Assembly (NCBI GenBank): GCA_021464245.1
Contig: JADCRB010000056.1
Location: 372,001-436,000 of the forward strand
DNA from: Carallia brachiata
Lineage: Eukaryota > Streptophyta > Magnoliopsida > Malpighiales > Rhizophoraceae
Length of the DNA stretch: 64,000 nt
Direction: 5' to 3'
Part shown: piece by piece, positions 17,450 to 60,647 of the stretch
Numbering within the stretch: position 1 is the first letter of the stretch
Layout of the letters: each line of letters opens with the position of its first letter
Notes under the pieces: generated by a model
Databases searched by the model: none
What the model was told of the DNA's origin: nothing
What the model saw: only the letters and a program-made list of their open reading frames with translations
Program-made: the position numbers and the translations under genes

Positions 17450-18570
17450 GCAGCTACATTTGGTCACAACAATTAATAAAATTGCCATGCAATTAAAAAA
17501 ATTTCAACAGTCCATTTCTCTTGCGTCTCGTTTCCACTATGCTCATCTATCTTTTCAATTGTGGTCTCATTAATTATAGCATATAAGGCCCATTTTTTTC
17601 AACTTTTAGTGCCTGTTATATGTTTGTATATTGTACAAACTGAGGATTACTTGCTCATTTTCTAAGTTGTATGTGTTTTAGAGAAGGTTTTTCTTTTCTG
17701 GTAACATTCAATACTAGTTACAAGTCGAACATTTAAATATACACATATAGCTCAGAGTCCTTCTATGGAAAGGGATCTACAAAAATTAATACCACCTATA
17801 CTATCGACAATCTACCAAAATAGTATTTACAAAATAGGGGAAAACCCAACAAAGAATCTTTACAAAGAGTGTTGCTCACGCCAACACCCTCCCTTAAGCT
17901 AGTGCATAGAGATCTCCAACACTCAGTTTGCTAAGTGAGTGATGAAACACTTTGCCCATGAGAGCCTTCGTTAAAGTGTCTGCCAGTTGATCCTCTGATT
18001 GAACAATATACAGCAGCTACATTTTGGTCACAACAATTAATAAAATTGCCATGCAATTAAAAAAAGTTTCAACAGTCCATTTCTCTTGCGTCTTGTTTCC
18101 ACTATGCTCAGTTATCTTTTCAATTGTGGTCTCATTAATATTAGCATATAAGGTCCATTTTTTTCAACTTTTAGTGCATGTTATATGTTTGTATATTGTA
18201 CAAATTGAGGATTACCTGCTCATTTTCTAAGTTGTATGTGTTTTAGAGAAGGTTTTTCTTTTCTGTTAACATGCAATACTAGTTACAAGTTGAACATCTA
18301 CATATACACATATAGCTCAGAGTCCTCCTAAGGAAAAAGATCTACAAAAATTAACACCACCTAGACTATCGACAATCTACCAAAATAGTATTTACAAAAT
18401 AGGAGAAAACCCAACAAAGAATCTTTATAAAGAGTGTTGCTCACGTCAACACCCTCCCTCAAGCTAGTGCATAGAGATCTCCAACACTTAGTTTGCCAAG
18501 TGAGCGATGAAACACTCTGCCCATGATAGCCTTCCTTAAAGTGTCTGCCAGTTGATCCTCTGATTGAACA
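17450..18570. repeat. 560-bp tandem duplication across an LTR-host junction
   Basis: Copy 1 (17450-18009) and copy 2 (18010 to about 18570) both begin cagcagctacattt..ggtca. Both run through host flank, a copia LTR (17674-17886 in copy 1, 18239-18451 in copy 2) and the start of the retrotransposon interior (ending ctgattgaaca). The breakpoint joins copia interior directly to host flank, so the duplication happened after the element inserted. Identity is high, with a few substitutions and one-base indels. Confidence 0.9.
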
Positions 18571-18656
18571 AATTGAAGCTGAATAATATTCTTCTCTAAC
18601 TTATCCTTCATCAAATGCCTATCTATCTCCACTTGCAATGTACGATCATGGTGCAC
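18459..18656 (-). pseudogene. copia RNase H C-terminal tail
   Basis: The minus-strand frame reads VEIDRHLMKDKLE, then FVQSEDQLADTLRKA and FHRSLGKLSVGDLYA. This matches the end of copia RNase H (DRHF.KEKL, FV.SEDQLADILTKA, F..SLGKLG..DIYAP). It lies just inside the 3' LTR, as expected for the end of pol. A duplicate of its last part is in the 560-bp tandem repeat at about 17890-18009. Confidence 0.85.
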
Positions 18657-25268: not shown

Positions 25269-25371
25269 AACAATTGCACTGTGACTTCATGATCATAACA
25301 ATTAAATTTCCAAACCCGCAGGTCAATAATGCAGTTCAGAGAAGTTAAAAAAAACAGAGAAAAAAGAAAAA

Positions 25372-26757
25372 ATGGCAAGCACTAAGCAGAGCACCACAAT
25401 ACATGTGGCAATGTTTCCGTGGTTTGCCTTTGGCCACTTCACACCATTCCTTCACCTATCCAACAAGCTTGCCGAGAAAGGCCACAAGGTCTCCGTTTTA
25501 GCCCCCAAGGGAGCACTGTTAAGGTTACAGCAACTCAGCAGCAATCACAGAAACCTCATTCAATTCTTTCCCCTGGAAGTTCCTCACGTTGATGGCCTCC
25601 CTCTTGGTGCCGAAACAGCCTCCGATGTACCATTCCATCTTCATACCCATCTCTGCACGGCCTTCGACAAAACGCGAGACCAAGTTCAATTCATTTTAGG
25701 TGCTACAAAGCCCGATATTGTGTTCTATGATCTCGCACCCTGGCTACCTGCGTTGGGCCGAGAATTAGGCTTCAAGTCTATTTCTTACTCGGTGGTATCC
25801 GCAGCCACAAGGGCTCTTTGGTTGGTGCCCTCCAAGAAGATGACAAAGAGCATGACCTTGGAAGAAATTATGGAGCCGCCTCCTGGTTATCCTTCTACCA
25901 AAGTTGTACTGAGGCCAGATGCGGCTGCACAAGTGAGAGCAATGGCAGGGTGGACTTTTGGGGCCGATGGGATGTCATTTTATCAGAGATTAATTGCAAC
26001 AATTGAGGCAGCTGATGCCCTTGCTATGAGGACTTTCCGAGAACTTGAGGGTCAGTTCTGTGAGTACTTTGCCCGTCAGTATGGAAAGCCAGTGCTGTAT
26101 ACAGGGCCTATATTGCCTGAAATCCCACCATCACAGCTTGAGGAGAAATGGGACACTTGGCTCAGCAAATTTCAGGCTGGTTCTGTGGTGTATTGTGCGT
26201 TTGGGAGCCAGATTATACTGCATAAGGACCAATTTCAGGAGCTGCTTATGGGATTTGAGTTATGTGGGCTACCATTTCTGGTGGCTTTGGTGCCACCACA
26301 CGGTTGCTCCACCGTAGAAGAGGCGTTTCCAGAGGGATTTGAAGAGAGGGTTGGAGGAAGAGGGTGGGTATATGGGGGCTGGGTTCCACAAGTGGAGATA
26401 CTTAATCACCCATCTGTTGGGTGTTTTGTAAGCCATTGTGGGTATGGTTCCATGTGGGAGTCTTTGCAGAGTGACTGCCAAATACTGCTTGTACCACATC
26501 TGCTGGACCAAATTGTAGGCACCATGCTAATGGTGGAAGAGCTTGGTGTTGCTGTGGAGGCAAAAAGGGAAGAAAATGGCCTAGTTTCAAGGGAGAGCTT
26601 GAGCAACGCCATCAAATTGCTGATGGACAATGACAGTGAATTCGCCACCAAGGTGAAAGCTAATCATGCCAAGTGGAGGAACATTGTTTCCTTCAAGGAC
26701 ATGCAAGATCAATATATAGACAATTTTATCAAGGACCTCCAAGAAATTGTATCATAG
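25372..26757 (+). CDS. UGT79-type UDP-glycosyltransferase
   Basis: Family 1 glycosyltransferase (GT1) of 461 residues, the usual length, in a single exon. It transfers sugar from a UDP-sugar in the cytosol. The N-terminal acceptor domain has the catalytic His22 (FAFGHFTPF) and its partner Asp120 (DIVFYDLAPWLP). The C-terminal donor domain has a complete 44-residue PSPG box at 337-380, from WVPQVEIL through HCGYGSMWESL to PHLLDQ. The HCG[FY]GSMWESL form and the opening are typical of UGT79, whose characterised members extend flavonoid or anthocyanin glycosides by adding a second sugar, as in 1,2-rhamnosyl- and 2''-xylosyltransferases. The exact sugar and acceptor cannot be read from sequence. 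Start choice: first ATG in a good context (aaaaaATGGC) after a TATA box. No breaks are visible, so it is probably functional. The gene sits between copia LTRs. Confidence 0.95.
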   Translation: MASTKQSTTIHVAMFPWFAFGHFTPFLHLSNKLAEKGHKVSVLAPKGALLRLQQLSSNHRNLIQFFPLEVPHVDGLPLGAETASDVPFHLHTHLCTAFDKTRDQVQFILGATKPDIVFYDLAPWLPALGRELGFKSISYSVVSAATRALWLVPSKKMTKSMTLEEIMEPPPGYPSTKVVLRPDAAAQVRAMAGWTFGADGMSFYQRLIATIEAADALAMRTFRELEGQFCEYFARQYGKPVLYTGPILPEIPPSQLEEKWDTWLSKFQAGSVVYCAFGSQIILHKDQFQELLMGFELCGLPFLVALVPPHGCSTVEEAFPEGFEERVGGRGWVYGGWVPQVEILNHPSVGCFVSHCGYGSMWESLQSDCQILLVPHLLDQIVGTMLMVEELGVAVEAKREENGLVSRESLSNAIKLLMDNDSEFATKVKANHAKWRNIVSFKDMQDQYIDNFIKDLQEIVS

Positions 26758-40554: not shown

Positions 40555-40973
40555 TGTTGGTTTTGAAGAAGATTGAATGAAGAAACATTGAGAGAAAAGT
40601 TGTAGCAGAGATTATGGAACTTGCTGGAAAGTTGCGACATAAAAGGAAAAGCAGAGAGAAAACATAGTAAAAATGGAAAAAGAGGTACAAACTGACTTCG
40701 TTACCTTTCATTGATAATTTATTTCAATATATATGAAGTTTGTAGAGATTACTTCATTGGAAATTTCAAAAACACAGTACAAAATTCAAATAAATTAGCT
40801 GTTAGAAATTTACTGCTTTTACAACTTGAAATTCAAATACAGAATAAAGTAACTCATACCCTTTCTGCAAAGTCAACTCCACATGCTTAAAATTAACTAC
40901 CATAATTGATTTTTGGTTGCTGGTGGGAAATGGTTAGGCAAGGCTAAAGCTTGAAACAAAAGAGACAAAATCA
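40555..40973 (-). mobile_element. copia LTR, same family as 50333-50751
   Basis: Shares with 50333-50751 blocks such as gaatgaagaaacattgagag, aacttgctggaaagttgc, tatatatgaagttt and aggcaaggctaaagcttgaa. On the minus strand it is followed by a decayed primer-binding-like sequence (ttgttatcaaagggc, 40550-40536). It is therefore probably the 5' LTR of the copia element whose pol lies at 35.4-39.5 kb, with gag lost. Confidence 0.65.
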
Positions 40974-41740: not shown

Positions 41741-43005
41741 TTTAAATTTACTTTTCATCTTATTTTGAGCTTACAAATTTTCATTTAAATATTATATTAT
41801 ATTTGCTATTTAAATAAATAGGTGCTAATTAAAAGACATACTTAAAAACTATATCAAATAATAAAAAATCTTATGTTTGCACAAATGGACATTGCCATTT
41901 AATAGACAATCATTCATATAATTACAAAGTTAACAAGTACAACCTCTCGCTTAAGTTATGTGATTGAAACAAGCCATAAGTCAAGCTTATCATGCAATCT
42001 AACTAGAAGTTTAGAACCTAAATTTTTGGGTTTCACATCCTCTAAGTCACGTACACACATAGCAATCTAAAAATAAAATAAAAATGAATATGAATTTCTC
42101 GAGTTCAGGGCCAGTACTAGCAAATCTAAGACATTAGCAGAAGGTTCTTGTGCAGGGACAACATGAGCTCTTCAAGTACAACCACCATTTTGAAAACAAA
42201 TTCTTCAAATTAAATTAAATTTACATTGGACTATCTAATAACTTCTCAAGGATTTCAGATTTCCACAAACAAGAAGATTAGCACACCAAATTTAAGTTTT
42301 GTGTTGGACTGGGGTGAGTGCACTTGTGTGAGTACAATGAAACAATTGCAAATTCAGGCACAACATGAGAGAAAATAAGAAACTTGCCCCAAAATATGTG
42401 TTGTCCTATCTTGACAAGTGAAGGTCTGCAGATTCAATGCTTTTAGCAATACTTACGTAAGAGAGAGTTTATCCTTTGAGCTGCAATTCAAAACAATATT
42501 TTATTAAATCAGAAAGTAATCCAAAATAAAAAGACTCATCCTTTCCTACCATATCATATATACATCTTATGTTCCCTGCTATTGGAGCAACAATATATTA
42601 TACCTTCTCGTTTCTTTAGTGGCTTGAGGTTTCTCTGAATTTGTATCTTCCAGCAAGCTACCTCTTAAGGTGTCATCCAAATGAAACCTCATCCTTTTGC
42701 TCCATTGTTCTACTAGTTTGATCAAAATTTTGTTGTTACCTACAATTCCAATAGCATCATAGGTTCCAATATTGTGGGAAGATCAATAATCAAAAGAGTA
42801 ATACAACATTTAAAAGAGACTTGTCAATTGCCAAAAAACCAAAGATAGATATAAAAAACAAATTATCATTTCAACAACCCAAAAGACACATACCAAGAAC
42901 AATAGGCACACCTTATGTACTCAAATTCGGTAAGTGATTCCCTAAGCAAATCTTGCAGTTGCCCCAAATGTTCAATGATGTTTATCTCATTTTGGTTACT
43001 CTAAC
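41741..43005. other. non-coding; perhaps CACTA interior
   Basis: AT-rich DNA, no protein motif found. It ends abruptly where the truncated LTR of the next element starts. Confidence 0.35.
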
Positions 43006-43673
43006 TTAGTGGCAGTTAAAGAGCATACACCCAAAATATTTAAAGAGAGAGAGAGAAAGATATGCAAAACTTTACAAAATGAGATTTTTGCTTTTCATTG
43101 GATGGTTTGAAATGTTTGAGGGGTGCCTATTTATAGGGTTTTGGGGAGGATGGAAGCCAAAATTGCATGACTTGGATCTACATGGCAAGGGCGCTCCTAG
43201 ATCATTGATTTTCGACATTTTACAATCAAGTGAAAATTAAAAGTTTCATATAATTCATCATGAGTAGGATCCTACATGGCAAGGGCTCTCTTAAGTCATT
43301 GATTTTTGACATTTTGCAATCAAGTAAAAATTAAAATTTCCATATGCATGCACTTGTAGCTTTCATGTAGAGCATGCATGGATATTTTTTTTTTTTATGT
43401 GTATTTACAAATGCCCCCACTTAAAGACTTAATAAGGAAGAACTTTAGGATGTGACCCGAACTGAGTTTTGAAGTCTAGGTTGAAGTTTGAGACGTCTTT
43501 AATGTTGAAGTCTTTAATTCCGATTAGTCGGCTGTTGTTGGACTTCAGTAGGAACTGATATGACCTTGAGGTTGTTAGGCCTCCAGCCAACATAGAAATT
43601 GATGTTCCATGGTTTTGGTGAGGATGACATAGTAGGCAAAGAACTTGAATCTCCCCATTAGGAAAGGTCAGTA

Positions 43674-44004
43674 TCATGGAACAATAAGGCCAACACAGAG
43701 AGAGACGAGCTGTACTGATAATCCCCGGGTCTGCTTTGACGTAAGGAGAGTAGTTGAAACTTCCCTATCTGTCACCGCATCTGAGAACAGATGAGGATGA
43801 TTGCAACTTCTTAGTAGGCTGTAATAGATGTAAACTAAAGAGAATGGTTGGAACTTTATTGGCCATGACATTGATTGTATCAGAGGCCGAGATTTGGGGG
43901 CTTTTAAGGATCCCTCGAGAAATACTCCTTCCCTTTTTAGCTCGCCCACCTCCAATTTGTTGATCACAGAACTTCTTAAAACAGAAATCGTAGGGACTAG
44001 CCAT
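43674..44004 (-). pseudogene. conserved ORF downstream of the homeobox, copy 1
   Basis: Starts MASPYDFCFKKFCDQQ and continues with KKGRSISRGILKSPQ. The copy-2 counterpart (52679-53050) starts MASSYTFSCREFFDQE and has KKRKSSPLRGIPKAPQ at the same position. A later block (SDAVTDREVSTTLLTSKQT) is in a different frame here and matches TDAVTYREVPTTLFTSKQT in copy 2, so copy 1 is frameshifted. I do not recognise the family. The basic middle and shared start suggest it was a real small protein, or a second captured exon. Confidence 0.5.
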
Positions 44005-44227
44005 TTTCTTTTCTTCAGAGAGAAATAGGAGTTGAGGTCTGGGTTTCAAGATCTGAGGATGCATGAAATATATATTCACAAAAATAACAGCTTTTTTTTT
44101 TTAAAAAAAAGGAAAATGATATGCTGGATCAGATGGGGTTCCTTTATGTATCTTTTTGTCATAAAGAAAAAACAAGACTGCAGCCAACGCGTGTTGCAAA
44201 AATCAATACCGTGTGCCACAAAAGTCA

Positions 44228-44296
44228 TTGCACCTAATCCTTGTTGGCTGTTGCACCTAATCCTTGTCGGCTGTTGCACCTAATCCTTGCCGGCTG
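44228..44296. repeat. 23-bp tandem repeat, three copies
   Basis: ttgcacctaatccttg followed by a variant of tcggctg, three times in a row, just past the stop codon of the homeobox ORF (minus strand). Confidence 0.85.
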
Positions 44297-44298
44297 AC

Positions 44299-44943
44299 CT
44301 AGTGGGGCTCAAGACGCAATTCCAAGTTAATCGCATCCTCGTTTGGCGGGCCAGTGTTGTCGACACTTCTCTACTGATTGACGTCGCCAGGGTGTACTGG
44401 AAAGAGAGGCGAAGTTTCGTTGGAGTGGCTCCCACCAAGTGTGAGGTTTGCTTTTGGATTGAAGTACTCATAAGGGGTAAATCCCTAGCTGAAGCTTGAG
44501 GCTCCGTGGAATGAAGAGTAAAACCTCTAAAACCAATATGCGTACTGCTGTAGGTTATTATTTTGGTTGAAATAGCCTTGAGGAACCATGGCAGTGGTGG
44601 AGCTCAGATCTGTTTTATTTGAGGATGAAACTGTGCCGGTAAGATCTATGACAGGAATAGCTGTGGTGGCTAGAACAGGCTGTGTAGCAAAAACAACAAC
44701 TCTTTGTATAGCTCTCTCCTTACTTCTCAGGTTCTAAAATCAGAAATACACATTATTTGTCTCGACTGCTCCGTACAGTCGCAGGTGTGAAGTAAGTTAG
44801 GAGAGTTGTGATGCATTAAGTGAAACACCTCCATTCTTGCGGAAGTGGTCCTCCAAGATTTGCAGTTGCATTGGATTTCGGTGCCATCTAACGCGAGGTA
44901 ACCTATTTCCTTCCCTGTCCTGACGTCCTGCAGCTGGTTCCAT
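44299..44943 (-). pseudogene. WOX-type homeodomain + EAR ORF, copy 1 (decayed)
   Basis: One continuous 215-codon frame on the minus strand with six in-frame stops and no frameshift. It starts MEPAAGRQ, then the homeodomain at about residues 18-80: RWHRNPMQLQILEDHF, NASQLS, stop, LYGAVETNNVYF. The recognition helix is recognisable, although two of its codons, including the core Trp, are now stops (..F*F*NLRSKERA). The middle has VIDLTGTVSSSNKTD and STTAMVPQGYFNQ. The end is NLELRLEPH, an EAR-type LxLxL repression motif. WOX proteins are nuclear DNA-binding regulators, and EAR motifs recruit TOPLESS-type co-repressors. Same strand as gag, in the space where pol is normally found. The copy is dead; layout and ends match 53278-53913. 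Confidence 0.82.
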
Positions 44944-45059
44944 TCTTCTCACTGAAAAAGGAAGCAGAGATTTGATATGCGGTAAAGACGAGTTGTGACT
45001 GAAGCAATGACTCAAACTTAAACCCTTGATTGCTTTTATTTTTACGCCGTTCACAGTTT

Positions 45060-45270
45060 ATACTTATGCAGGCCAGGAGTTTTGGATTGAATTTTAAGCC
45101 GTTCACAATTTATATTCATGTGAGGCAGGAGTGTTGAACTGTGTTGTCGCCTTTTAAACTCGTGCAAGGCAGGAGTGTTGAACTATTTTGTCGCCTTTTA
45201 TACTCGTGCGAGACAGGAGTATTAAACTGTGTTGTCGCTTTTATACTCGTGCGAGGTAGGAGTCTAAACT
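45060..45270 (-). repeat. minisatellite upstream of the homeobox ORF, copy 1
   Basis: About four units of 45-50 bp with the core ttttatactcgtgcgagg followed by caggagt, starting about 120 bp upstream of the ORF start (minus strand). The same minisatellite is at the same place in copy 2 (54005-54245). Confidence 0.8.
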
Positions 45271-45289
45271 GTGCTGTTGAACTTAAGTT

Positions 45290-45640
45290 GTTGTCTTAGG
45301 CTTCGAGTCAGGGTTTGAGGTTTGCCCCCAACTTTGGATTTAGACTTTAGACCAGAATTTGGTTTTGGGTTTTGAGCTGGAGTTTAGATTTGGTTTTTGA
45401 ATTTGGATCCGGATTTGGGCTTTGAGCTAGAATTTGAATTTGGGATTTGCGCTAGAGTTTGAGTTTGGGCTTTCAGTCCGGGTTTGAGCCTGAGTCGACA
45501 TTTGGGCTTTAGATTTGGGTCCAGGTTTGGGGTCAACCCCCAATCCAGATTTGGATTCTAGACCGAAATTTGAGCTGGGGGTTTTGAGGAAGGGTTTTGA
45601 ACTTGGATTTAAATTTTTGGACTGAACCTACAAATAAGGT
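45290..45640 (-). repeat. G/T-rich low-complexity repeat
   Basis: Degenerate repeats of tttgagctggagtttg and tttgggttt, also present between gag and the homeobox ORF of copy 2 (54270-54560). Non-coding as far as I can see. Confidence 0.7.
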
Positions 45641-45701
45641 TCAGAAGCACTTTCTTTTTTGTTTAATTTTTTTGTGTAATAACGCTTTATAAATTTACCA
45701 G

Positions 45702-47297
45702 TTAATTGATCCAGGTCGAGATGTACTTCCTGGTCTGACGGCGTGTAAGCATAGATTCATGCCAACTTTCTTTTGACGGATTTAAAGAAACAATGGCTTG
45801 GTTGACTGGGGCTACGTCTTTCTGATCCAAAATAATTTTATCTTGATCTATGATCTTCAAAATCAGCTCCTTTAAGACGAAGCACTCCTCGGTTGGATGA
45901 CTAACTATGCGATGATACCTACAAAATTTCAAATCATTGACCTGATCCTTCTGATTGGGTTGCTTGCGCTCTGAGAACTTGATCAGTTTAGCTTCCAAAA
46001 GTTGATCGAGAATGTCTGGAACGCCAGAGTCAGGGAATGGGTACTTCTTCTGTTCTAACTCTCGCAACATCACCTTTTGTCTTTTTTTTTTTGTTTCTGT
46101 TGATTAGCTGGTGCTAGAGGACTCACATTTGTTTTAGCTCCAATTTTTATCGATGAAGTATCAACGGTCATCACTTCTTTGCCCCCATGTTAGCCTAGTT
46201 GGATGAGAATTGTGCACCTAGAAGTCTTGATGCTTATCTCTATGTCATACGCGCGAGTCGCCAATTCTTCAAAAGTTTGAGGTTTGATGCCCTGCAGGAT
46301 GTATAACAGCACCCAGTGCATCCCCTAGACGCACATTTCTACCGCAGAAGTCTCCGTAAGATGATCCTTGCAGTCCAGACTAAGAGCATGCCATTTGTTG
46401 ATGTATTCGACAACGGGCTCTCCTTTCTTTTGCTTGGTGCTGGTAAGCTCCATTATGCTTACTGTTCTCCGAGTACTGAAGAATGTGTTAAGGAACTCGC
46501 GTTGTAATTATTCCCAACTATCAATTGATTATGGTTCAAGGTTTATGAACCAAATGAAGGCGGTGCCTTTGAGTGAACGAACAAACTGTTTTACCAAAAG
46601 GTCACCGTAGGTTCCTGCATTATTATAAGTTTCGACGAAGTAAGCAACGTGTTGCTTAGGATCACCTCATCCATCGAATTGTTGAAATTTAGGTGGTTGG
46701 TTGCCCAAAGGCATGCTAAGATTTCAATCCCCCTAGTGTACGGTTTGGCGTACATCTGTGACCCTTGGAAGGATGCGGTTTTTTGTAAGCGGATTGGATG
46801 GGCTATCTTGTCCTGTAATTGTTGGATAGATAGCGAGGCTACAGAATTTGAAGGTGGTAGTTGTGTGGAACTGTCTGGTTGCTTTCCTACAGTGAAGACG
46901 TTAGTTGGTGTTACTTTTAGAGTAAAACTGGGTGGGTATGGTTGCTCCTCACGGGTCTTGGGATCAGCTTAGATCAGGACTTTCCCTTTGAGAGCGGTGA
47001 TCTGCTGATATTTTTCCTCCAAAACTCTGATAGCGAGGCTACAGAATTTGAAGGTGGTAGTTGTGTGGAACTGTCTGGTTGCTTTCCTACAGTGAAGACG
47101 TTAGTTGGTGTTACTTTTAGAGTACAACTGGGTGGGTATGGTTGCTCCTCACGGGTCTCGGGATCAGCTTAGATCAGGACTTTCCCTTTGAGAGCGGCGA
47201 TCTGCTGATATTTTTCCTCCAAAACTCTGATCTGTTGGGAAATTATGTTCTCCAATTCTGCAATTTGTTCTTCTGTGCTGGTTGAGTTGGTCATCAT
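45702..47297 (-). pseudogene. gypsy-like gag, copy 1 (broken)
   Basis: Minus strand. It starts MMTNSTSTEEQIAELE, a coiled-coil-like N terminus like copy 2. Near the end it reads ELEQKKYPFPDSGVPDILDQ, LLEAKLIKF, FCRYHRIVSHPTEECFVLKE. The last block resembles the YCKYHR..SHP...CF..K region that follows gag in many plant gypsy polyproteins. The frame is broken by a 200-bp tandem duplication at 46829-47228 and other changes. No protease or RT follows. Confidence 0.8.
46829..47228 (-). repeat. 200-bp tandem duplication inside gag
   Basis: Copies 46829-47028 and 47029-47228 both start gatagcgaggctacagaatt and differ at only a few positions, so the duplication is recent compared with the age of the element. 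200 is not a multiple of three, so it shifts the gag frame. Confidence 0.95.
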
Positions 47298-48039
47298 GAC
47301 TGCAATGACATCGGTGTTGGTAGATGATGCTTTGTGGAAAACTGGAGTAGCGGGCTCTTTTGCTTCCTCCTCGCTCGTTTTTTAGGAATAGGCCAGCTTC
47401 TGGTGTTGTCTGGATTTTTTTGTATTGCCCTCGACTTCGATCGGGTAGGTGATCAACTTCTCCATTTAGTGAGAGAGTCGAGGGAGAGATCCTGTTGTCG
47501 TGTGACCTACAAATTTTCCGTTTTGATATTTTATTGTGCTTGGATAGCGAGGAATTGTGTTCGTCCGCGAGTTTCTAGGTCTGCTTACCCAGTAAGGTAA
47601 TTGATGCAAGTAATGGAACAATTGCCTTTTTGCTGGCGGCGGCTGTCGTGCTCTTTTTTTTTTCTTTTTTTTCTTTTTCTCTCTTGTCTTTTTCTCAATT
47701 TTGTCTTTTTCTTTTTTCCTTTTTCTTTTTTTTCTCGGCTCTTTCGTTTTGCCTTTTCTTTTCACGAAACAAAAGATAGGAGACGAAGAGGTCCCATTGG
47801 GCGTGCCAGAAATTTGTAACAAGATTGTATGTTTCAAGCCTGCAACAGTTAGACTCAAAAATACAAATTACAAATTAGACATAAAAATTTTAAAATAAAA
47901 TAAAATTGATGTGGGGTCGATCTTCGTGGATCCTCCGATTAGTGTTCGTTCATGACTCCGTCAAGGGTTGAATTTCCACAGCTTGCTCTTGAACTGATGG
48001 AATTAATTCTATTGAGGACAAAGACTTGATCTCAGATGG

Positions 48040-48290
48040 ACTAGTGAGACTCTCGTGGGGGCCTTAGGCGGCTTGATCCTACTTGGTCTAGATGGACTCT
48101 GATGAGGGCTGTAGGAGGTTTGATCCCACTCAGATTGGCTAGGCTCCGGTAAGGGCCATAGGAAGCTTCATCCCACTCAGACTAGATGGACTCCAGTGAG
48201 AGTTGTAGGAGGCTTGACACTACTCGAATTAGATGGACTTTGGTGAGGACCGTAAGAGGCTTGACCCCACTCAGATATTTAATATATTTG
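48040..48290. repeat. about 50-bp tandem repeats inside the LTR (copy 1)
   Basis: Five or so units with the core gagggc.gtaggaggcttgat followed by cccactcagact and gatggactc. Related arrays lie at the same place in both LTRs of copy 2 (51590-51800, 56350-56570). Confidence 0.8.
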
Positions 48291-48694
48291 GATTTTGATC
48301 TTGCAGATCCAACTTAGTGGCAGTTAGAGAGCATACACTCAAAATATTTAGATAGAGAGACAAGAAGATTTTTGCTTTACATGGGATGGTTTGAAAGGTT
48401 TGAGGGGGTACGTATTTATAGGGTTTTGGGGGAAGATGGAAGTCAAAATTGTATGACTTGGATCATACATGGCAAGGGCCCTTTTAGGTCATTGATTTTG
48501 GACATTTTGCAATCAAATGGAAATTAAAGTTTTCATATGATTTATCATGAGTAGGATCCTGCATGGCAAGGGCCCTCTTAGGTCATTGATTTTTGACATT
48601 TTGCAATCAAGTGAAAATTAAAATTTCCATACGCATGCACTTATAGCTTCCATGTAGGGCATGCGTTGATTTTTTTTTTTTATGTGTATTTACA

Positions 48695-50332: not shown

Positions 50333-50751
50333 TGTTGGTTTTGAAGAAGTTTGAATGAAGAAACATTGAGAGAAAAGTTGCAGCAAAGATTATACAACTT
50401 GCTGGAAAGTTGCAATAGAGAAAAAAAAGTAGAGAGCAAGCATAGCAGAAAGGGAAAAAGAGGTACAAACTGACTTTTCTACTTTTTATTGATAATTTAC
50501 TTCAATATATATGAAGTTTGCAGATATTATATCATTGAAAATTTGAAAAATAAAGTACAAAATTCAAATAAACTAGCTATTAGAAACTAGTAGTTTTTAC
50601 AACTTGAAATTCAAATACAAAATAAAGTAAATCATGCCTTTTCTGCAAAGTCAGCTCCACCTATTTAAAATCAATTGCCATAATTGATTTTTGTTTGTGG
50701 GAGGGAAACGCTTAGGCAAGGCTAAAGCTTGAAACAAAAGAGACAAAATTA
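50333..50751 (-). mobile_element. copia 5' LTR
   Basis: On the plus strand it starts tgttggttttgaagaag. It is closely similar to 40555-40973 in the same orientation. PBS and gag lie to the left, so this is the 5' LTR of a minus-strand element. The right edge is uncertain by a few bases. Confidence 0.75.
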
Positions 50752-51335
50752 GCACTACCACTGCCAGCAAAAACAAAATTTCCATGAAAAACGACATAAT
50801 AAAAGCATTTCTTTTTTTGCAAATTTTAGGCAAAAAATGGTTTTATATTTTAAGCCATCATGCAGTCGTCCAAATGTAAATGTTTGTTGGTCAAGGTAGT
50901 TGGAAAGTGGCGGTGATGGTCTTATTTTTGCCATTGAAGTTGCTTGGTCCACGAATAACTCCAATGGATTTCATCTTATTGTTAGTCTTTTGGACGGAAA
51001 AACCGTTCAACACTCAGCTCTCCTGCAATTGTGAAGCTGCATGGAAACCGAAAAAATCTTTTGATGCAAAAGAGCTGAATAACTATCTTTTCACTTTTTA
51101 TTTTGTTGCAACGTAAGATAAGTTGTGGTCTTTTGACAAAGAGGCCTTAAATTTCAAAGGAATTTCAGGAGATGAGCTACCTTCAAAGGTAAATTTCCAG
51201 TTCAAAATTTTTGTGTATCTGCGTGGGTCAATATGGGCATAAGAGTATTGGATCATATTCATTTTAAATTTATTATATTTCAGTTGATGAGTTCGTTGTC
51301 ATATTAATAAAACTCGAGTTATTTTAATTAACTTA
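50752..51335. other. no gene recognised
   Basis: A 78-codon plus-strand ORF (50880-51116) and a possible acceptor (tttttgcaaattttag) give it a slightly coding look, but I recognise no family. Confidence 0.35.
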
Positions 51336-51589
51336 TGTGAAACGGGACCCGCACGTTTCGAGCCTACAACAGTTAGGTCTCAAAACTACAGATACAAATT
51401 ACATATGAAAATTTAAAATTAAAATGGGTCCAATCTTTAGATAGATCCTCCGATTAATGCTTCTGTGATTTAGTCAAGGGCTGCGCGAGCTTGATCTTGA
51501 CTGAAAGATGTTGAATTTCCACAGCATGATCTTGAACTGTAGGAAATAGATTCCAGTTAGGGCCGAGGCTTGATCTCAGGTGGTGCTGG

Positions 51590-51800
51590 AACTCCGATGA
51601 GGGCCGTAGAGGCTTGATCTCGTTCAAAATGGTCTTGTTCCAGTGAGGGCCGTATGAGCTTGATTTCAGGTGGACTGATTTGACTCTATTGAGGGCTGGG
51701 GCTTGATCCCACTCAGACTGTTTAGCTCTGCTGAGAGCCGTAGAGACTTTATCTCAGATGGACTGACTTTGCTGAATGTTGTAGGCAGCTTAATCTCAGA
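51590..51800. repeat. about 50-bp tandem repeats inside the 3' LTR (copy 2)
   Basis: Units with gagggccgtagaggcttgat followed by ctcactcagactg or variants. A counterpart is in the other LTR at about 56350-56570. Confidence 0.8.
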
Positions 51801-52678
51801 CAAATGTTTAATATTTTAAATTTGTACTTTCACGGGTTCAAATCTGAGGCACCAAAGAGTATAAACTCAAAATATACTTGGAAATGGATATAACAAATTT
51901 TTTGGTGGTTGCACCGGAGATATCTCTCGACAAGGAGTTAGGAGAGTATACTGCAGTGTAAAAACACATAGGCAAAAGACAAATTTTCTTGAGAGATTTT
52001 CAAAATTTTCTTTTTCTCTCAAGTTCTCTCTATTTTTCTGTTTATGAATTTGCTGAATGATTTCAGAATTGGGGAGAGAGGGCCTATTTATAGGTCTCCT
52101 TTCGTTGTAGGAAATGCAATTTCAATTTGACCCTTGAAATTAAATCCCCACCCCGTGTTTCTGTGCCAACTTTTCTATGATTGGCTTGTGGCTTTTTCTG
52201 GGGTCTCTCATTGGCTGTTGGAGATTTTGAGCCTATTTATAGGCTGGGAGGAGACACTGTACAGTACTCTGTCACCAACTTTTCGCTGACTTTTTTTTTT
52301 CTTCTGGCTGGTGCCTAACTTTGATTTTTTTTTTCTTTCTTCTTCTAAAAGCTAATCTTCTAGATTGCCTCTTTTTTTTTTTTTTTCATGTGTTTACAAA
52401 TGCCCCCACTTCAAGGGTTGGTGAGGAAGAACTTTGCTCATGTGCTCCGAACCGAATCTTGAAGTCCAGCTTGATGCTTGAGATGTCTCGATGAATGTTG
52501 AATGCTTCGATTATGCCTGCTGTTGTTGGATCTCAATGGAAACCGATACAATCTTGAGGAAGTTAGCAGTCCAGCCAATATAGAAATTGAAGTCTTTGCT
52601 CCAAGTGACGTCAACCTTCCAAAGCTCGCAAAGATTATTTTATGTGTCTTGAAGTTTCACAACTCTGGTGAGGATGAT

Positions 52679-53050
52679 TCAATAGGCAAAAAACTTGAAC
52701 CTCCTCATGAGAAAGGCCCAGGACCGCGGAACAACAAGGCAAACCCACAGAAAGACGGGCTGTAATGATAATCTCCAAGTCTGCTTCGACGTAAAGAGAG
52801 TAGTTGGAACTTCCCTATACGTCACTGCATCTGTAGATCCAGGAGGACGATCACAACATCTCAGCTCGCTACGATAGATGTGAACTAAGGAGAGTGGTTG
52901 TAACTCCATGACATCAATGGCGTTGAAGGTTGAGTTTTGAGGGGCTTTAGGAATCCCTCGAAGAGGACTACTCTTTCTCTTCTTAACTCGTGCACTTCCA
53001 GCTTCCTGATCAAAGAACTCCCTACAAGAGAAAGTGTAGGAGCTAGCCAT
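52679..53050 (-). pseudogene. conserved ORF downstream of the homeobox, copy 2
   Basis: About 124 codons open from MASSYTFSCREFFDQEAG through a basic stretch (RVKKRKSSPLRGIPKAPQ), NAIDVMELQPLSLVHIYRS and TDAVTYREVPTTLFTSKQT to FLMRRFKFFAY. Both the start and the two conserved blocks are found in copy 1. The Met at 53050 is chosen because both copies begin MAS there; a longer frame reaches 53119. No family recognised. It follows the homeobox ORF by about 230 bp on the same strand. Confidence 0.55.
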
Positions 53051-53277
53051 TTCTTTCCTGGGAGAAAAAAGGCTCAAGGGGTGAGTTCTATAACTCAAGT
53101 AGGAAATATATACACACAAAAAAGCTTTTTTTTTTTTTTTTTTTTTGAAAAGTCAAAAAAGGATACGCGGAATCTGGTGGGGTCCTCCACGTTCTTTTCT
53201 TCCATAAGCGACAGAAGAGGCAGTGGCTGACAGGCGTCGCAAAAGTCGTTACCGCTTACTGTAAAAGTTGTTGTGCC

Positions 53278-53913
53278 TTATACTTGTCGGCCATCCTGGT
53301 GGGGCCCGAGGCGCAGCTCCAAGTCAAGCCTGGCCTCGTTCGGTGGGTCAATGATGTTGACGTCGCTAGAGCCTTTCGGTTGATTGATGCTGTCAAAATA
53401 TTCTAGAAACAGAGGCAAAGTTTCGCCGAAATGATTTCTTTCTGCTAGAAAGGTTCCTCCTGACCTTAAGTACCTAGGAGGGATAAACTCTTGGCTAACT
53501 CCGTAAGACCACCAAGACTAGTACGCATACTCCCACTGGCTACGGCTTTGATCGAAGTATCCTGGAAGGACCATTGCAGTAGTAGAACTCGGACCTTCTT
53601 CATTTGAGGGTGAAGTAGTACCGGTGAGATCTAATATGGGAGCGGCAGACTGTGCTTTGGAAATAGTATCTCTCAACGCCGCTCTCTTCCTGTTTCTCCG
53701 ATTTTGGAACCAAAAATATATATTTTTGCCTTCGACTGCTCTTAGCGGGTGCAGTCGTGAGACAAGTTAGAGAATCTGTGATGAGTTAGGGACAATACCT
53801 CCATTATTGTAGAAGAACTCTTCCAAAATTTGCAATTGTGTCATAGTTGGGTGCCATCTTTTGCGGGGTGACCTTTCTTCTTCCTTAACCTGTTGTTCTG
53901 CATATGGTTCCAT
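53278..53913 (-). pseudogene. WOX-type homeodomain + EAR ORF, copy 2 (nearly open)
   Basis: One uninterrupted 212-codon frame with only two in-frame stops. It starts MEPYAEQQVKEEERSPRK, then the homeodomain: RWHPTMTQLQILEEFFYNN, VPNSSQIL, stop (TAA, also in copy 1), LVSRL, AVEGKNIYFWFQNRRNRKRA. The recognition-helix signature WFQNRRN is intact, and the spacing and Q-ILE..F..N..G pattern are those of WUSCHEL-type homeodomains. The middle has ILDLTGTTSPSNEE and STTAMVLPGYFDQ. The C terminus is ARLDLELRLGPHQDGRQV with an EAR-type LDLELRLG. The family acts in the nucleus in stem-cell and organ patterning. There is no intron, in keeping with carriage as RNA by a retroelement. Not translatable as a full protein unless the stops are bypassed. 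Confidence 0.88.
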
Positions 53914-54004
53914 TTCTCTGCTGTAGAGGAGCAAAGGTCTGATATGTAGGGAAGACTGAAGTAGAGACTCAGACTCAAACTCACGATCGTTTTTATATTT
54001 TTGG

Positions 54005-54245
54005 GTCGTTCACAGTTTATACTCGTGCGGGCCATAAGTCTTGGATTGGGTCTTGTGTTGTTGTTGCCTTTTTGCCTTTTATACTCGTGTGGACTAGGAG
54101 TCTGGTTTGTTGGATTGTTCTCCTTTTATACTCGTGCGAGGCAGGAGTGTTGGACTGTGCTGTCGCTTTTTATACTCGTGCGAGGCAGAAGTATGTTTCA
54201 ATTGATCGCCTTTTATACTTGTGCGGGGCATGAGTGTGCTGTAGG
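54005..54245 (-). repeat. minisatellite upstream of the homeobox ORF, copy 2
   Basis: Five units with the core ttttatactcgtgcgagg followed by cagaagt or variants, ending about 90 bp upstream of the homeobox start (minus strand). Shared with copy 1 (45060-45270). Confidence 0.8.
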
Positions 54246-54269
54246 AATGCTGTTAAGCTGTTGAGCTGC

Positions 54270-54560
54270 TGACTAGGGTTTTGGTTCAGGGTTTGGGGTT
54301 TGCCCCCGACTTTGGATTTGGACTTGAATTTGTTCTTTGAGCTGGAGTTTAAGTTTGAAGTTTTGGATTTTGAGCTGGAATTTGGGTTCGGCCTTAGGTT
54401 ATGCTCCTGAATTTGGATTTGGGATTTTGGATTGCAATTTGGACTTAGGAGTTTGATCCCGGGTTTGAGCCCGAATTTGGATTTGTTGGGTTTTGAGTCG
54501 GGGTTTGAGATCTGCTCCCGAATCTAGATTTGGATTTTGAGGAATGGTTATGAACCTGCA
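54270..54560 (-). repeat. G/T-rich low-complexity repeat
   Basis: Degenerate repeats of tttgagctggaatttggg and related words between gag and the minisatellite, as in copy 1. Confidence 0.7.
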
Positions 54561-54649
54561 CATGAGCTTCGGACATTTTTTTTTCTTTTTTTTTTTGCAT
54601 AACAATACTTTAAAAATTTACCACTTGATTGAGGCAAGTCGGGAAGTGT

Positions 54650-56010
54650 TTTTGGGTTTGACAACATGTAAGTGTGGATTCATGCTAACTTTCTTCTGAC
54701 AAATTTGCAGAAACAGTGATCTGATTGACTGAGGCCACGTCTTCTTGATCCAAAATGATTTTATTTTCATCTATAAGCTTCAAGATCAGCTCCTTTAAGA
54801 CGAAACACTTCTTGGTTGGATGGCTGACTGTGCGGTGATACCTGCAGAATTTTAGATCATTTATTCAATCGTTCTGATTGGGTTGCTTACACTCCGGGAG
54901 CTTGATCAGCTTAGCTTCCAAAAGTTGATCGAGAATGTCTGGAACATCAGAGTTAGGGAATGGATACTTCTTCTGTTCCAACTCTCGCAAGGTCGTCCTT
55001 CCCTTTTCTTGTTGTTTTGCCAGTGCTGGAGGACTTATTTTCGCTTTAGCTCCAACTTTTATCGATGAAGCATCAATGACCATCACTTCCTTACCCCCAT
55101 GTTGGCCCAGTTGGATGGGAATCGTACCTCCAGAGGTTTTGATACTTATTTCCATGTCATATGTGCGAGTCGCCAATTCCTCGAAAGTTTGAGGTTTAAT
55201 GCCCTGCAAGATGTGTAGCAGTTCCCAATGCATTCCTTGAAGACACATTTTTACCGCAGAAGTCTCCGTCAGACGATCTTTGCAATCCAAGCTGAGAGCA
55301 TGCCATTTGTTTATGTATTCGATGACAAGCTCTCATTTCTTTTGTCTAGTGCTAGTAAGCTCCATCATGCTTACTATTCGACGGGTGTTAAAAAATTTGT
55401 TGAGAAACTCATGTTGCAGCTGCTCCCAACTGTCAATCGATTCTAGTTCAAAGTTTATGAACTAGGTGAAGGCGGTATCTCTGAGTGAACGAACGAATTG
55501 CTTTACCAGGAGATCTCCGTAAGTTTCTGCATTGTTGCAGGTTTCAACGTAGTGGGCGATATGCTGTTTGGGATCACCTCGTCCGTCAAATTATTAAAAT
55601 TTGGGCGGTTGGTAGCCCAAAGGCATGTTGAGATTTTCGATCCGCCTGGTGTACGGTCTGACGTACATTTGTGAACCTTGAAATTGTGCACTTTGTTACA
55701 GGTGGATTGTATTTACTATCATATCCTGTAATTGTTGGACAGATAGTGAAGCGGCAGAATTTGCAGGCAACAGCTGTGTGGAACTACCTAGTTGCTTTTC
55801 CGCAGTGAAGAGATCAGTTGGCGTTGCTTCTAGAGTAAAACTAGGTGGATACGGCTGCTCTTCGCGGGTCTCAGGATCAGCTTGGATCGGGACCTTTTTT
55901 TTTAGGCGAGCGATCTGTTGATCTTTTTCTTCCACAGCCTTGACCAGTTGGAAAATTTTGCTTTCCAATTCTGCGATCCTATCTTCCGTGTTGGTTGCGC
56001 TTGTCATCAT
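54650..56010 (-). pseudogene. gypsy-like gag, copy 2 (broken)
   Basis: Minus strand. The first part (55696-56010) starts MMTSATNTEDRIAELESK and has heptad-like charged residues (VEEKDQQIARLKKKV), then EEQPYPPSFTLEATP and SVQQLQDMI. The second part (54865-55290) reads [40 protein letters not shown], then ELEQKKYPFPNSDVPDILDQ, LLEAKLIKLPECKQPNQ. These are the typical C..RL.E..AV.MC..GMHW and [13 protein letters not shown] blocks of a large plant gypsy gag family. Stops and a frame change separate the parts. No downstream protease or RT. Confidence 0.88.
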
Positions 56011-56085
56011 GGTTGCAACAAAATCGATGTTGGATTCCTGCTAAATTTTTTTTTTTTAAAGGAGCAAAAGATTGGAGGTAGAGAT

Positions 56086-56103
56086 GTCCCACCGAGCGTG
56101 CCA
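56086..56103 (-). promoter_or_regulatory. primer-binding site, not tRNA-Met type
   Basis: On the minus strand tggcacgctcggtgggac begins with TGG, pairing with a tRNA 3' CCA end. Copy 1 has tggcacgcccaatgggac at the matching place. This differs from the tggtatcagagc sites of the copia elements in the window. I cannot name the tRNA from sequence alone. Confidence 0.75.
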
Positions 56104-57172
56104 AATTTGTGAAACGAGACTCATACATTTCAAGCCTGCAACAATTAGGTCTCGAAAATATATATTTAAATTATAGATGAAAATTTAAAATTAAAATGGG
56201 TTCGATCTCTGGATAGATCCTCCGATTAATGCTCCTGTGATTTATTCAAGGACTGCGCGAGCTTGATCTTAATCGAAAGATATTGCATTTACACAGCGTG
56301 ATCTTGAACTGTAGGAAATAGATTCCACTGAGGGCCGAGGTTTGATCTCAAGTGATGCTGGAACTTCGATGAGGGCCGTAGAGTTTTGATCTCGTTCAGA
56401 ATGGTCTAATTCTAGTGAGGGCTGTATGGGCTTGATCTCAGGTGGACTGATTTGACTCTACTAAGGGCCGGAGCTTGATCCCACTCGGACTGTTTAGCTC
56501 CGCTGAGGGCCGTAGAGGCTTTATCTCAGATGCATTGGCTTTGCTAAGGGCTATAGGAAACTTACTTTCAGACAAATGTTTAATATTTTAGATTTATACT
56601 TTCACAGGTTCAAATCTGAGGCACCGGAGAGTATAAACCCAAAATATACTTGAAAATGGATATAGCAAATTTTTTGGTGATTGCACCTGAGATATCTCTC
56701 AAAAAGAAGTTAGTAGAGTATACCGCAGAGTAAAAATACATAGGAAAAGAAGAAATTTTCTTGAAAGATTTTCAAAATTCTCTTTTTCTCTCAAGTTCTC
56801 TCTATTTTTTTATTTATGAATTTGCTGAATGATTTTAGAATTGGGGAGAGAGAGTCTATTTATAGGTCTCCTTTCATTATAGGAAATGGAATTTCAATTT
56901 TACTCTTGAAATTAATTCCCCACCCCGTGTTTCTGTGCCAACTTTTCTATGATTGGCTTGTGGCTTTTTCTAGGGTCTCTCATTGGCTGTTGGAGATTTT
57001 GAGCCTATTTATAGGCTGAAAAGAGACACTGTGCAGTATTGTGTCACCAACCTTTTGCTGACTTTTTTTTTTCTTTTGATCGGTGCCTAACTTTGATTTT
57101 TTTGTTTTCTTTCTTCTTCTAGAAGCTGACCTTCTATATTGCCTTTTTTTTTTTTCATGTGTTTACAACTTA

Positions 57173-57671
57173 CCCTCAAACTTATATTCTCTTAAATTTT
57201 TACTTTTCCCACCGACGTGGGCCAATAGCCATTTAAACACTTACGATTTGCTGGGACAAAGGAAACAGCAATGACTATTAGCAACAGAGTGGGTTTCTTT
57301 ATGGTTGTTGATGCATATTGTTTTAGACAAATGGGAGAGAGATCTACGTTTGGAGAATTGTTGGATGTTAGGAATGCACTACTCAAAAGAACTAAAGAGA
57401 AACAAGTTATTGGTGATACGATATCGTTTAATTTTCTCATTACATTAAATTAAATTAGGTTTTCAATACCCAACCAAGTTAATAAATTTTCATTTATGAC
57501 CCAAATGACTGTCTCAGCTTCACCTTGTGATGATGTCAAAAATGCTATGTATAACCACACTCTTTATCAACAAGAACTTTCGATTACTAGACTCCAAAAT
57601 CAAGCCTGCTACTCCCACATTCCTCCAAAAAAAATAAAAATGCTACTCCCTCACTTTTTCCTTATTTTACT
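57173..57671. other. no gene recognised
   Basis: A 60-codon plus frame (57271-57453) has no family similarity that I recognise. Confidence 0.4.
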
Positions 57672-58030: not shown

Positions 58031-60647
58031 TCAGCATACTAATGCCACGCTAAATGATACTTTTGTTTGTGGCCCCCATTTTCGTTCCCTACGTCCTTCT
58101 CCAATGTGTCCTTTGCTTGCTTCCAAATTTCTCGAGGAACCATCCACCTTTCCGAATCTGTGTCCAATGACCAATCCGACCACAAGTCCACTTCCATAGC
58201 CTACCAAGACCATCATTAAAACCAACATGCATGATGAAGTTTTTGCCATGAGCTTTCCCATAGTTTAGGAGATGTTGAGGAGATGGGGCCTCTGGATCCC
58301 CACATTTTCTGGTCAAAGGATGCCCGCACAGTCCAAGGTTCCCACGATATGAGTTATTGTCAAATGTATCAAATTGCTTCCCTTGTGGTATAGGACCCTT
58401 CAATTGACTGCGTGACAGAGAAAAGTTAGATGTCCTAGCTGCATTGAAATCTCACTTAGGAGCATGTTATGCGAAAAGTCCAAGGATTTGATCCTCATCA
58501 AATTTCCAAGGTTTGATGCGATACTCCCAAATAGATAATTGTTTGACAAGTTGAGAACATTAAACATCTTTAGCATCCCAATCGCAAGGGGAATGTGCCC
58601 TTGGAATCCATTGCTTGAGAGGTAAATGGCCACCACCACATATGGGATTTTTGAATATTTCACGTGTATGCCCTTGTTTGCCGATACTAGTTGGTATGTA
58701 TAGTTGTACGTGATGATATCCTTCTATTGCAAAGTTTAGGTGGATAGGATATACGACAAATTGGCCTAGGCTGAAAGCTTTCATGATGCTTAATTCCTTA
58801 AAGAGCCCAGCAGGTAAGATGCTTATAAAATTGTTGCCGGACAAATCAAGTATTCGTACTTGGGAAACCTAGAGTATCTTCTGTGGCTTTGTATTGCACG
58901 AAACAATTGATCGGACCATAGGGTGAGAAGCTGCAACACAGGATGATTTCCCAACTAAAAGGGAAAGGAATCACTAATTTGATTTTCACTGAGATCAAGA
59001 CTCTCTAGCATTTTATAATTAGTTAAAGATCTTCTCAGACCACCCTCTAATCTATTATGACTCAGATCAATCATTCCTAAGGCACTTCCACCAGTGAATG
59101 TTTCAGGAATGTTGCCACCGAAACTGTTTTTTGCGAGGTTCAACATGAGTAAAGAGTCACTGAAATTGGCCAAACAGCTTGGAACCCTGCGACTCAGGCT
59201 GTTGGATGACAAATCAAGGAACACAAGAGAGGACAAATCACAAACCGGCTGGCAAATTTCTCAAAGAAAAATTGTCACTAGACAAATGGAGATACCTCAA
59301 ACGTTTGAAGCCGAGGAATATATCGAAATTCACAGTTTCTGTCAAGTAATTATCCTGCAAATCAACATATTCAAGATTCACAAGGCTGGAAAAAAATAGA
59401 AATTTGAGTTGTACCGTGAAAGTGGTTATCTCCAAGATCTATGTAAGCAAATTTCGTGAGATTTTGAAAACTACATTGGGATGCGACCAATTAATTTTTT
59501 TAGAGAAAAGAATCAGTTTACTAAGATGTGTGAGATTCATAAGAGAAGAGATTTTACCAATTAAATTGTTTCCATGAAGATCCAAAGATTTAAGCTTATG
59601 TAGCTTACCAAACCCAATAGGAATAAGGCCTGAAAAATTGTTATGTTCAAGTTCTAAATTGGAAAGCTTAGTTAGCTGACCCAGTGAAGTTGGGAGTGGA
59701 CCAAAGAGGTTGCAGTCCCAGAGATCCAGATGTGCTAACAAAGACAAATTTTCGCGAATGTTGGGCAGAGTAGATGAGAGGTTCACGTTACTGAGAACAA
59801 GAGCATGAAGCCTAGTTAAATTCTGAGCCAAATTTATCATATTAGAAGAATGGAGTTCCAGCAAGTTGATTTGTGTAGGTGGATCATCATTAATACCCAG
59901 ATCAAGAGAAGACAAGTCGGACAACTCTGCCAATTCCAACGGAATTTTGCTAGAGTATAATGAATAGCAAAGATTAAGACATTTTAGACTGGCGAGAAGT
60001 CCAAGCCGAGAGAGGATTTGAGAGCAATTGAAGTTGTTATCTGCTAGATTAAGTTTTTGAAGATGAAGCAGATGGAAAAGGTTGCTGCTGGAGTTTATGG
60101 ATCCTTTGAGACAACTGCTGCTGAGATCGAGTCCTATGACATGGCCCTTCTCCCTATCACACTCCACACCATCCCACTTGCAGCAATCAGTTGATGAAGT
60201 TGAAGCGTTTTCTCCACCGTGCACAAGGCCCCCAAGATGCAACCTTTTGGTATACCAAACGATCATAGGAAGCGTCCGCTGCGATGGAAAAGCTTTGCTT
60301 GAGCTTATAGACAACAAGGCATGTCTCTATCATCGTTAGTGGCGGAGCCATATTGCCCCCACTGAAAAAAACAATGTATACTATTTTGGTATGATTTACA
60401 TAAGATTTATGTAATTATTTCTACTAAAATTTACGTTTTGTCTCCATTGAAGTTTATATTTCATATTTTTACTTTCACTTCGTTATACTCCCATATCTGT
60501 TTTCCCCACCAGAAAATATTCCTGACTCTGCCACTGATCATCGTGGCACAGAGTCCTGAGAGATGTGGAAGAGCTTACAGGAAAAAGTGTTAGCAATAGG
60601 GGAAGCCAGTATAGGTAGGATAACAGATCGTAGAACCACGAAGCCAT
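58031..60647 (-). pseudogene. LRR receptor-like protein (RLP) pseudogene
   Basis: Remains of a Cf-9-type cell-surface immune receptor on the minus strand. It starts with a signal peptide (60647: MASWFYDLL..) leading to the N-cap LCHDD. It is then interrupted by a 200-bp hAT MITE. After it come LKQSFSIAADAS (frame 2) and, after a frameshift, DCCKWDGVECDREKGHVIGL and leucine-rich repeats (60317-59439; 59435-59238; 59236-58955). Eroded repeats follow (58844-58400), then the C-cap KQFDTFDNNSYRGNLGLCGH (58403-58089) and the single membrane segment with GYGSGLVVGLVIGHRFG (58031-58261). Each part is in a different frame, so there are several frameshifts plus internal losses; intact RLPs are about 900-1000 residues. 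Even without the MITE the joined frames contain stops. No kinase domain, as expected for an RLP. Confidence 0.92.
60337..60536. mobile_element. hAT-type MITE inserted in the RLP gene
   Basis: 200 bp with terminal inverted repeats tagtggcggagcca and cagtggcagagtcagg, flanked by a perfect 8-bp target duplication atcatcgt (60329-60336 and 60537-60544). The 8-bp target and the AGTGGCGGAGCC terminus are typical of hAT elements. It splits the RLP directly after the codons for CHDD. Confidence 0.93.

Follow-up and report, generated by a model that had tools for sequence, protein, structure and literature searches.

Two pol-less elements with a homeobox frame

The window considered here is a stretch of 64,000 nucleotides of the Carallia brachiata genome (C119:372001-436000), and the genome searched is the assembly to which it belongs (337.5 Mb, 164 contigs). 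At 51336-57167 the window holds, on the minus strand, a long terminal repeat (LTR) retrotransposon, element A, which has a gag frame and a homeobox frame of the WUSCHEL type, and at 43003-48694, on the same strand, it holds a sister, element B, in which the parts have the same order. Element A is an old, broken, pol-less insertion belonging to an unusual family, in which the homeobox, as suggested by copies elsewhere in the genome, is an accessory gene located behind pol.

The LTRs of element A have TG...CA ends and are flanked by an exact 5-bp target site duplication (TSD), ACTTA, at 51331..51335 on the left and 57168..57172 on the right (no strand). The 3' LTR (51336..52398, minus strand) is 1063 bp long and the 5' LTR (56108..57167, minus strand) is 1060 bp long, and their Kimura two-parameter distance (K2P) is 0.121 over the 1059 sites compared. 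The primer binding site, TGGCACGCTCGGTGGGAC, is at 56086..56103 and the polypurine tract, AAGTGGGGGCATT, is at 52399..52411, both on the minus strand; the polypurine motif recurs in element B and in young copies. The gag frame (54865..56010, minus strand) has five in-frame stops and matches PF03732 (E 3e-10, Pfam scan). It has 506 protein matches, and most of those listed are gags of plants, about 45-60% identical, which shows that this gag is of a widespread type. The paired LTRs, TSD, primer binding site, polypurine tract and gag identify element A as an LTR retrotransposon, in agreement with the first-pass annotation, which had described a structurally complete element with LTRs of about 1.06 kb and gag without pol. 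The absence of pol is also borne out, as no match is found anywhere in the window when the reverse transcriptase (RT), the RNase H-integrase and two protease-region pieces of sister copies are used as tblastn queries (E up to 1e-3). An Rfam scan of 51000-57500 gives no match.

The homeobox open reading frame (ORF) of element A is at 53278..53913 on the minus strand. It had been read as a single-exon frame of 212 codons, but it is interrupted by TAA at codon 49 and by TAG at codon 132. The homeodomain matches PF00046 (E 1.8e-9, Pfam scan), and the closest solved homeodomain is that of WUSCHEL (6ry3, E 6e-14), with STENOFOLIA at 4e-12. These matches, together with PF00046 matches above the cut-off in young copies, identify the homeodomain as WOX-type and uphold its description as WUSCHEL-type; the stretch LDLELRLG is found near the C-terminus of the frame, as annotated. 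The codon-49 stop, common to elements A and B, was considered as an old nonsense mutation and rejected: 13 copies read Q in 7 and stop in 4, which makes independent decay likelier.

Upstream of the homeobox ATG, at 54016..54237 on the minus strand, there is a promoter-like tandem array of an approximately 44-bp unit with GAGTATAAA (four exact copies), and 3' of the frame, at 53126..53146, a tract of 21 A on the minus strand may be a fossil poly(A). The conserved 3' region (52666..53050, minus strand) has a second short ATG frame, MASSYTF..., without a Pfam match. In another copy (L054:5239-6046) this second conserved frame between the homeobox and the 3' LTR reads MASLCTCLRKFFDQEVGG..., again with no Pfam match.

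In element B, the 3' LTR is truncated (43003..43409, left border approximate) and the 5' LTR is at 47815..48694, with an LTR K2P of 0.105 over 381 sites. The homeobox ORF (44299..44943) has several stops and is preceded by a TATA-bearing tandem array (45050..45277), the gag region is at 45623..47320 and the primer binding site, TGGCACGCCCAATGGGACC, is at 47790..47808, all on the minus strand. The gag region has an internal tandem duplication of 203 bp (46829-47231), whose copies are 98.5% identical. Pol sequence is not found in element B when searched by tblastn with the same RT, RNase H-integrase and protease-region pieces. The types of primer binding site and polypurine tract match those of element A; the gag K2P between the two elements is 0.295, and their LTRs can be aligned in short pieces only. 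Elements A and B are separate insertions from separate subfamilies, and element B is not a segmental duplicate of element A, the explanation that the first-pass annotation had set against its own reading. Element B sits between a pair of repeats (40555-40971 and 50333-50749, 86.9% identical) that, judged by eye, could mark the two ends of a Ty1/copia-like element.

Copies of the homeobox elsewhere in the genome

When the LTR of element A is used as query, at least 43 matches are obtained (40 of 2398 first-look candidates scored), many of them paired about 5 kb apart. Fifteen LTR-anchored loci were fetched; the homeobox is present in 11 (including L009, which, judged by its flank, is an allelic copy of element A), only its C-terminal end is present in one, and it is absent from three. 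For 12 LTR pairs, including those of element A and L009, the K2P is 0.092-0.195. Exact 5-mer TSDs are seen for element A, L009 (at the site of element A), L011, L016 and L018, and by eye for L019; the TSDs of L012 and L013 agree in 4 of 5 bases, and no TSD could be made out for L010, L014, L015 and L017 (4 of the 12 pairs). Homeobox-bearing LTR copies with distinct TSDs, which the first-pass annotation had proposed to look for, are found in number. Two of the 12 pairs, L017 and L018, are LTR relatives without the homeobox, and L018 has gag and tandem repeats; such forms have either lost the homeobox or predate its capture.

The homeobox protein of element A, used as query, detects many more copies: all of the 150 loci scored, out of 2311 first-look candidates, span at least residues 11-205, with 68-76% identity when element A itself is set aside. 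The 30 best-scoring of these loci, which comprise 20 different nucleotide frames, were checked for context. Integrase is found at most 1.5 kb upstream of the homeobox in 27 and the polypurine tract 0.87-1.0 kb downstream in 24, and one or both adjoin the homeobox in all 30. The homeobox frame is open over at least 200 codons in 23 of the 30, with an ATG in 22 of these; because only top-scoring loci were taken, this overstates the intact share. Open frames would also be expected if duplication had expanded genuine host WOX genes that are here misread as transposon cargo; homeobox genes are normal host regulators. This idea is refuted for the 30 loci checked (of the 150 scored) by the retroelement sequence that adjoins each frame, which also speaks, for these loci, against a homeobox that mostly occurs outside LTR elements. 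With the distinct TSDs, the continuous frame and the homeodomain tree (see below), in which the element rows form one clade apart from nine host homeodomains, its probability is negligible.

One copy, on C1, was traced to both LTRs. It is about 10.2 kb long, with an LTR K2P of 0.034 over 664 sites and the TSD TACTT (by eye), and its order is gag, RT, RNase H-like, integrase, homeobox in sense and 3' LTR, the homeobox ORF starting 0.85 kb 3' of the integrase frame. The Pfam matches are Retrotrans_gag (5e-15), RVT_1 (7e-35), RVT_3 (4e-25) and rve (2e-10); RT_RNaseH_2 (2e-4) stays under its cut-off. The order gag, RT, RNase H, second RNase H-like domain and integrase is the rule for Tat-like (Ogre/Retand) elements (PMC6317226), and it is seen in this copy, the second domain, presumably of the archaeal type, being recognized by RVT_3 only. 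Five of the 30 loci, including this one, were fetched with longer flanks. L057 likewise has RT and integrase; L056 has gag, the protease region and integrase but gives no match to RT; in L055 (LTR K2P 0.020, TSD TAAAT) gag is present and pol is missing, and L058 (LTR K2P 0.015, TSD TTAAG) has neither gag nor pol. The older LTR pair of L019 (K2P 0.181) encloses RT, integrase and homeobox, from which it follows that this arrangement is not recent.

The integrase upstream of 27 of the 30 loci and the domains of the C1 copy place the homeobox behind pol, and from these sequences it appears to belong, as a 3' accessory gene, to a Tat-like family of Ty3/gypsy elements, of which the window copies would be pol-less derivatives. 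Two observations weigh against this reading: the polyprotein of the C1 copy is spread over more than one frame, and a wholly open gag-pol is seen in no copy examined. The proposal of the first-pass annotation, a homeobox captured by a non-autonomous family, survives in part; the cargo is WUSCHEL-type, appears to derive from a host WOX gene and has a continuous frame, but it is not tied to a pol-less family. The LTR-gag-homeobox order without pol, for which many copies were to be checked, is shared by elements A and B and L055, whereas the C1 copy, L057 and L019 carry RT and integrase. TR-GAG elements are LTR elements with gag as their only coding part. Element A resembles them in having LTRs and gag and no pol, but it also has the homeobox and is related to pol-bearing elements, and so it is not one of them.

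Constraint on the homeobox frame and its origin

Between elements A and B, the gag core has kept a codon signature, with differences of 0.149, 0.113 and 0.335 at codon positions 1-3. The median pairwise omega is 0.38 for gag in 9 copies (35 pairs, without a wrong-frame control) and 0.59 for the homeobox in 13 copies (77 pairs). For the 12 older copies that remain when L009 is left out, the homeobox omega of 0.60 was considered as a sign of constraint and rejected, because the controls gave the same value (wrong frames 0.59-0.70, LTR pseudo-frames 0.59-0.89). Among 13 intact young types, the median omega is 0.48 in the true frame versus 0.88 and 1.27 in the shifted frames (from the 42 pairs, of 78, that show 20 or more differences), and in five chosen pairs between the main young types it is 0.38-0.52, versus 0.83-1.57 in the shifted frames.

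Several of these results limit the case for selection. The homeobox of elements A and B differs by 0.301, 0.378 and 0.364 at codon positions 1-3, with no codon signal, and constraint is visible among the young types only. For the five pairs, the upper limits are 0.60-0.74 in four and 1.05 in one, the true-frame and shifted-frame intervals overlap in part, and the pairs come from three lineages and are not independent. The simplest reading is that the frame decays neutrally after insertion and is under constraint while the elements are active.

The values of the older copies are also what is expected if the homeobox is a passive passenger without a role, captured in a non-autonomous LTR family and spread by chance, as the first-pass annotation implied; the window copies are pol-less and broken, and several older copies lack gag or have frameshifts. 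Set against this are the integrase next to the homeobox in 27 of the 30 best-scoring loci, the open frames in 23 and the true-frame omega of the young types, which is below that of the shifted frames. The passenger explanation is considered improbable, and an accessory gene retained by selection is preferred.

For the origin of the homeobox, the element homeodomains were compared with nine host WOX homeodomains (two WUS-like and seven other), taken from 150 rows, with intermediate and ancient WOX left out. The two host WUS-like homeodomains are 84 and 81% identical to the solved WUS homeodomain. They share with the elements a homeodomain loop that is one residue longer than in the seven other host WOX, and both host WUS-like genes have ETLPLFP. 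In the 13 intact element types, E(T/I)LPLFP is present in 11 and LELxL in 11, motifs that we take to be marks of the WUS clade (the WUS-box and the C-terminal LELxL, respectively). In both host WUS-like genes the WUS-box is located behind stop-containing stretches, where introns are presumed, whereas in the elements it belongs to one continuous frame. Downstream of the homeobox, the longest run of A has 11-43 residues in all of the 30 best-scoring loci and is 149-309 nucleotides (nt) away (185-209 nt in 21 of the 30), which is what a captured polyadenylated mRNA would leave. The homeodomain length, the absence of introns and the A-tract suggest a single capture of a WUS-clade mRNA.

Other features do not fit this origin so well. 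In a tree of 14 rows (5 element, 9 host), the element homeodomains form one clade (100/100), with all nine host WOX on the other side, and they are not adjacent to the host WUS-like genes; the tree, which had been expected to identify the donor, groups the elements together without joining them to these genes. The element homeodomains are 45-49% identical to the nearest host WOX, and that of element A is nearest to a WOX that is not WUS-like. Of the intact types, 2 of 13 lack E(T/I)LPLFP and 2 of 13 have LKLRL in place of LELxL; MEP at the start and LELSL are found in one host WUS-like gene, MDP and LELTS in the other. The poly(A) argument is weakened by A-rich tracts at other places in the elements.

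Of 113 candidate proteins, none matches the homeobox frame of element A at E <= 0.001; a young intact frame has 5 matches among 153: three named WOX2 (from Mangifera, Pistacia and Hibiscus), one hypothetical protein from Pistacia and an unnamed protein of 161 amino acids, which resembles a WUS-type host protein. Among these five, no element protein of another species is recognized and none is from Vigna. The named matches, the presence of ETLPLFPLHP in the Mangifera WOX2 and the position of the elements in the tree would be explained if the donor was another WOX, WOX2-like or of an older clade, with the WUS likeness arising by convergence or retention. This is rather unlikely, because the seven other host WOX lack the WUS-length homeodomain that the elements have in common with the two host WUS-like genes, and because the ETLPLFP box is present in both WUS-like genes, with MEP and LELSL in one; a WUS-clade donor is therefore preferred.

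Upstream signals, related systems and proposed role

TATAAA is found at -140 to -80 of the homeobox ATG in 37 of 37 rows (31 distinct loci; six rows repeat a locus). The 27 loci with integrase have 0-1 GAGTATAAA unit in the 420 nt upstream of the homeobox and the three without integrase, including element A, have 4-6, as if the pol-less forms had multiplied this unit, although these are three loci only. In the protein, WFQN is present in the homeodomain of 12 of the 13 intact types. Five WOX core motifs were counted in four LTRs (20 tests, with no correction for their number). TTAATSS exceeds the shuffle mean in each of the LTRs, its best result being reached by 11 of 300 shuffles, and TAAT reaches 8 of 300 shuffles in one LTR; the remaining tests give no excess. 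No consistent excess is thus seen across the four LTRs, a point against the reading preferred here.

The rest of the window has two copies of about 563 bp, head-to-tail and 94% identical (17446-18571), an inverted repeat (6119-10343) whose arms, each about 720 bp and 80% identical to the other, are 2.8 kb apart, an open frame of 475 amino acids (25330-26757), presumably UDP-glycosyltransferase-like, and minus-strand frames with leucine-rich repeats (58089-60326), apparently broken and presumably of a receptor-like protein.

The first-pass annotation knew of no described plant family with such a cargo, but a meeting report (PMC10714607) describes WOX genes, mostly flanked by LTRs and with TSDs, that are amplified in Vigna marina and V. 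riukiuensis, with more than 1000 copies in the latter. In both systems, genes of the WOX family have reached high copy number and most copies are bounded by LTRs and TSDs; the Vigna account, compared by description only, does not report the gag-pol context, the WOX clade or a test of selection. In the literature searched, no further plant LTR element with a homeobox was recognized. The homeobox cargo is thus already reported, and this literature does not describe it as an accessory gene, apparently under selection, in a pol-bearing family.

Retand and Grande of the Tat clade are similar in that pol is separated from the 3' LTR by an accessory ORF and tandem repeats (PMC11963269, PMC6317226, PMC7264820), and in having an RNase H-like domain between RT and integrase. 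In the portion of the Retand survey (617 assemblies; PMC11963269) consulted here, the clusters have sense ORFs downstream of pol in which no known domain is found, and ORFs with known domains are antisense and mostly TRP28, unlike the sense, homeodomain-encoding ORF described here. Of 14 antisense frames of at least 60 amino acids in two copies, five were scanned; TRP28 (PF04195) is not matched in these, and nothing is above the Pfam cut-off. Extra ORFs are counted only from 250 codons in PMC6317226, a cut-off that exceeds the length of the homeobox ORF. A host-derived protein retained as an extra ORF of a gypsy family is also seen in Phalaenopsis, where Ty3/gypsy elements have an AlkB domain (PMC9289625, with a screen of 121 angiosperm genomes). 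The terms 'homeobox', 'homeodomain' and 'PF00046' are absent from the main text of that paper (this covers the main text, not the supplementary chart), and the nearest case named there is a B3 DNA-binding domain in Aegilops. Maize Bs1 is likewise an LTR element that has captured host gene sequences (PMC13317346), but these are segments of three host genes, whereas here one whole-length regulator is found in a family with pol.

It is probable that a captured WOX gene, most likely of the WUS clade, is a selected 3' accessory gene of the Tat-like family, with a putative regulatory role. A host WOX mRNA would have been reverse-transcribed into a Ty3/gypsy (Tat-like) retrotransposon and would have become its accessory gene, in sense, between integrase and the 3' LTR. 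The family then multiplied and, as the young types indicate, retained under purifying selection a protein of about 205 amino acids with a WUS-length homeodomain, a WUS-box-like stretch and the C-terminal LELxL; pol-less derivatives, including elements A and B, also carry the homeobox, and those seen may have amplified the TATA-bearing 44-bp unit that precedes it. Of this, the sequences show the structure, the many copies, the open frames, the selection at codon level in the young types and the single clade of the elements. Homeodomains bind DNA, and the WUS-box/EAR motifs recruit TOPLESS-type co-repressors. From these parts of the sequence we infer that the protein would be made, be nuclear, bind DNA via its homeodomain and recruit a TOPLESS-type co-repressor, acting as a WUS-like regulator or as a competitor of WUS in meristem cells, from which new insertions would pass to the next generation. 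WUS has an antiviral role, and shoot stem cells give rise to the germline. More tentatively, it can be imagined that an active lineage deploys its WUSCHEL-derived regulator in shoot stem cells, either for its own expression or by blunting the WUS-dependent exclusion of viruses and transposons.

Extra ORFs are common in plant LTR elements and their roles are mostly unknown. Here, the cargo is a recognizable relative of a plant stem-cell master regulator, which is open and apparently selected in recently copied elements. In genomes of this kind, transposon copies may raise the number of WOX genes that are counted, and the family raises testable questions about a retrotransposon route to the plant germline and about a selfish element that would feed a WUS-like protein into the meristem network.

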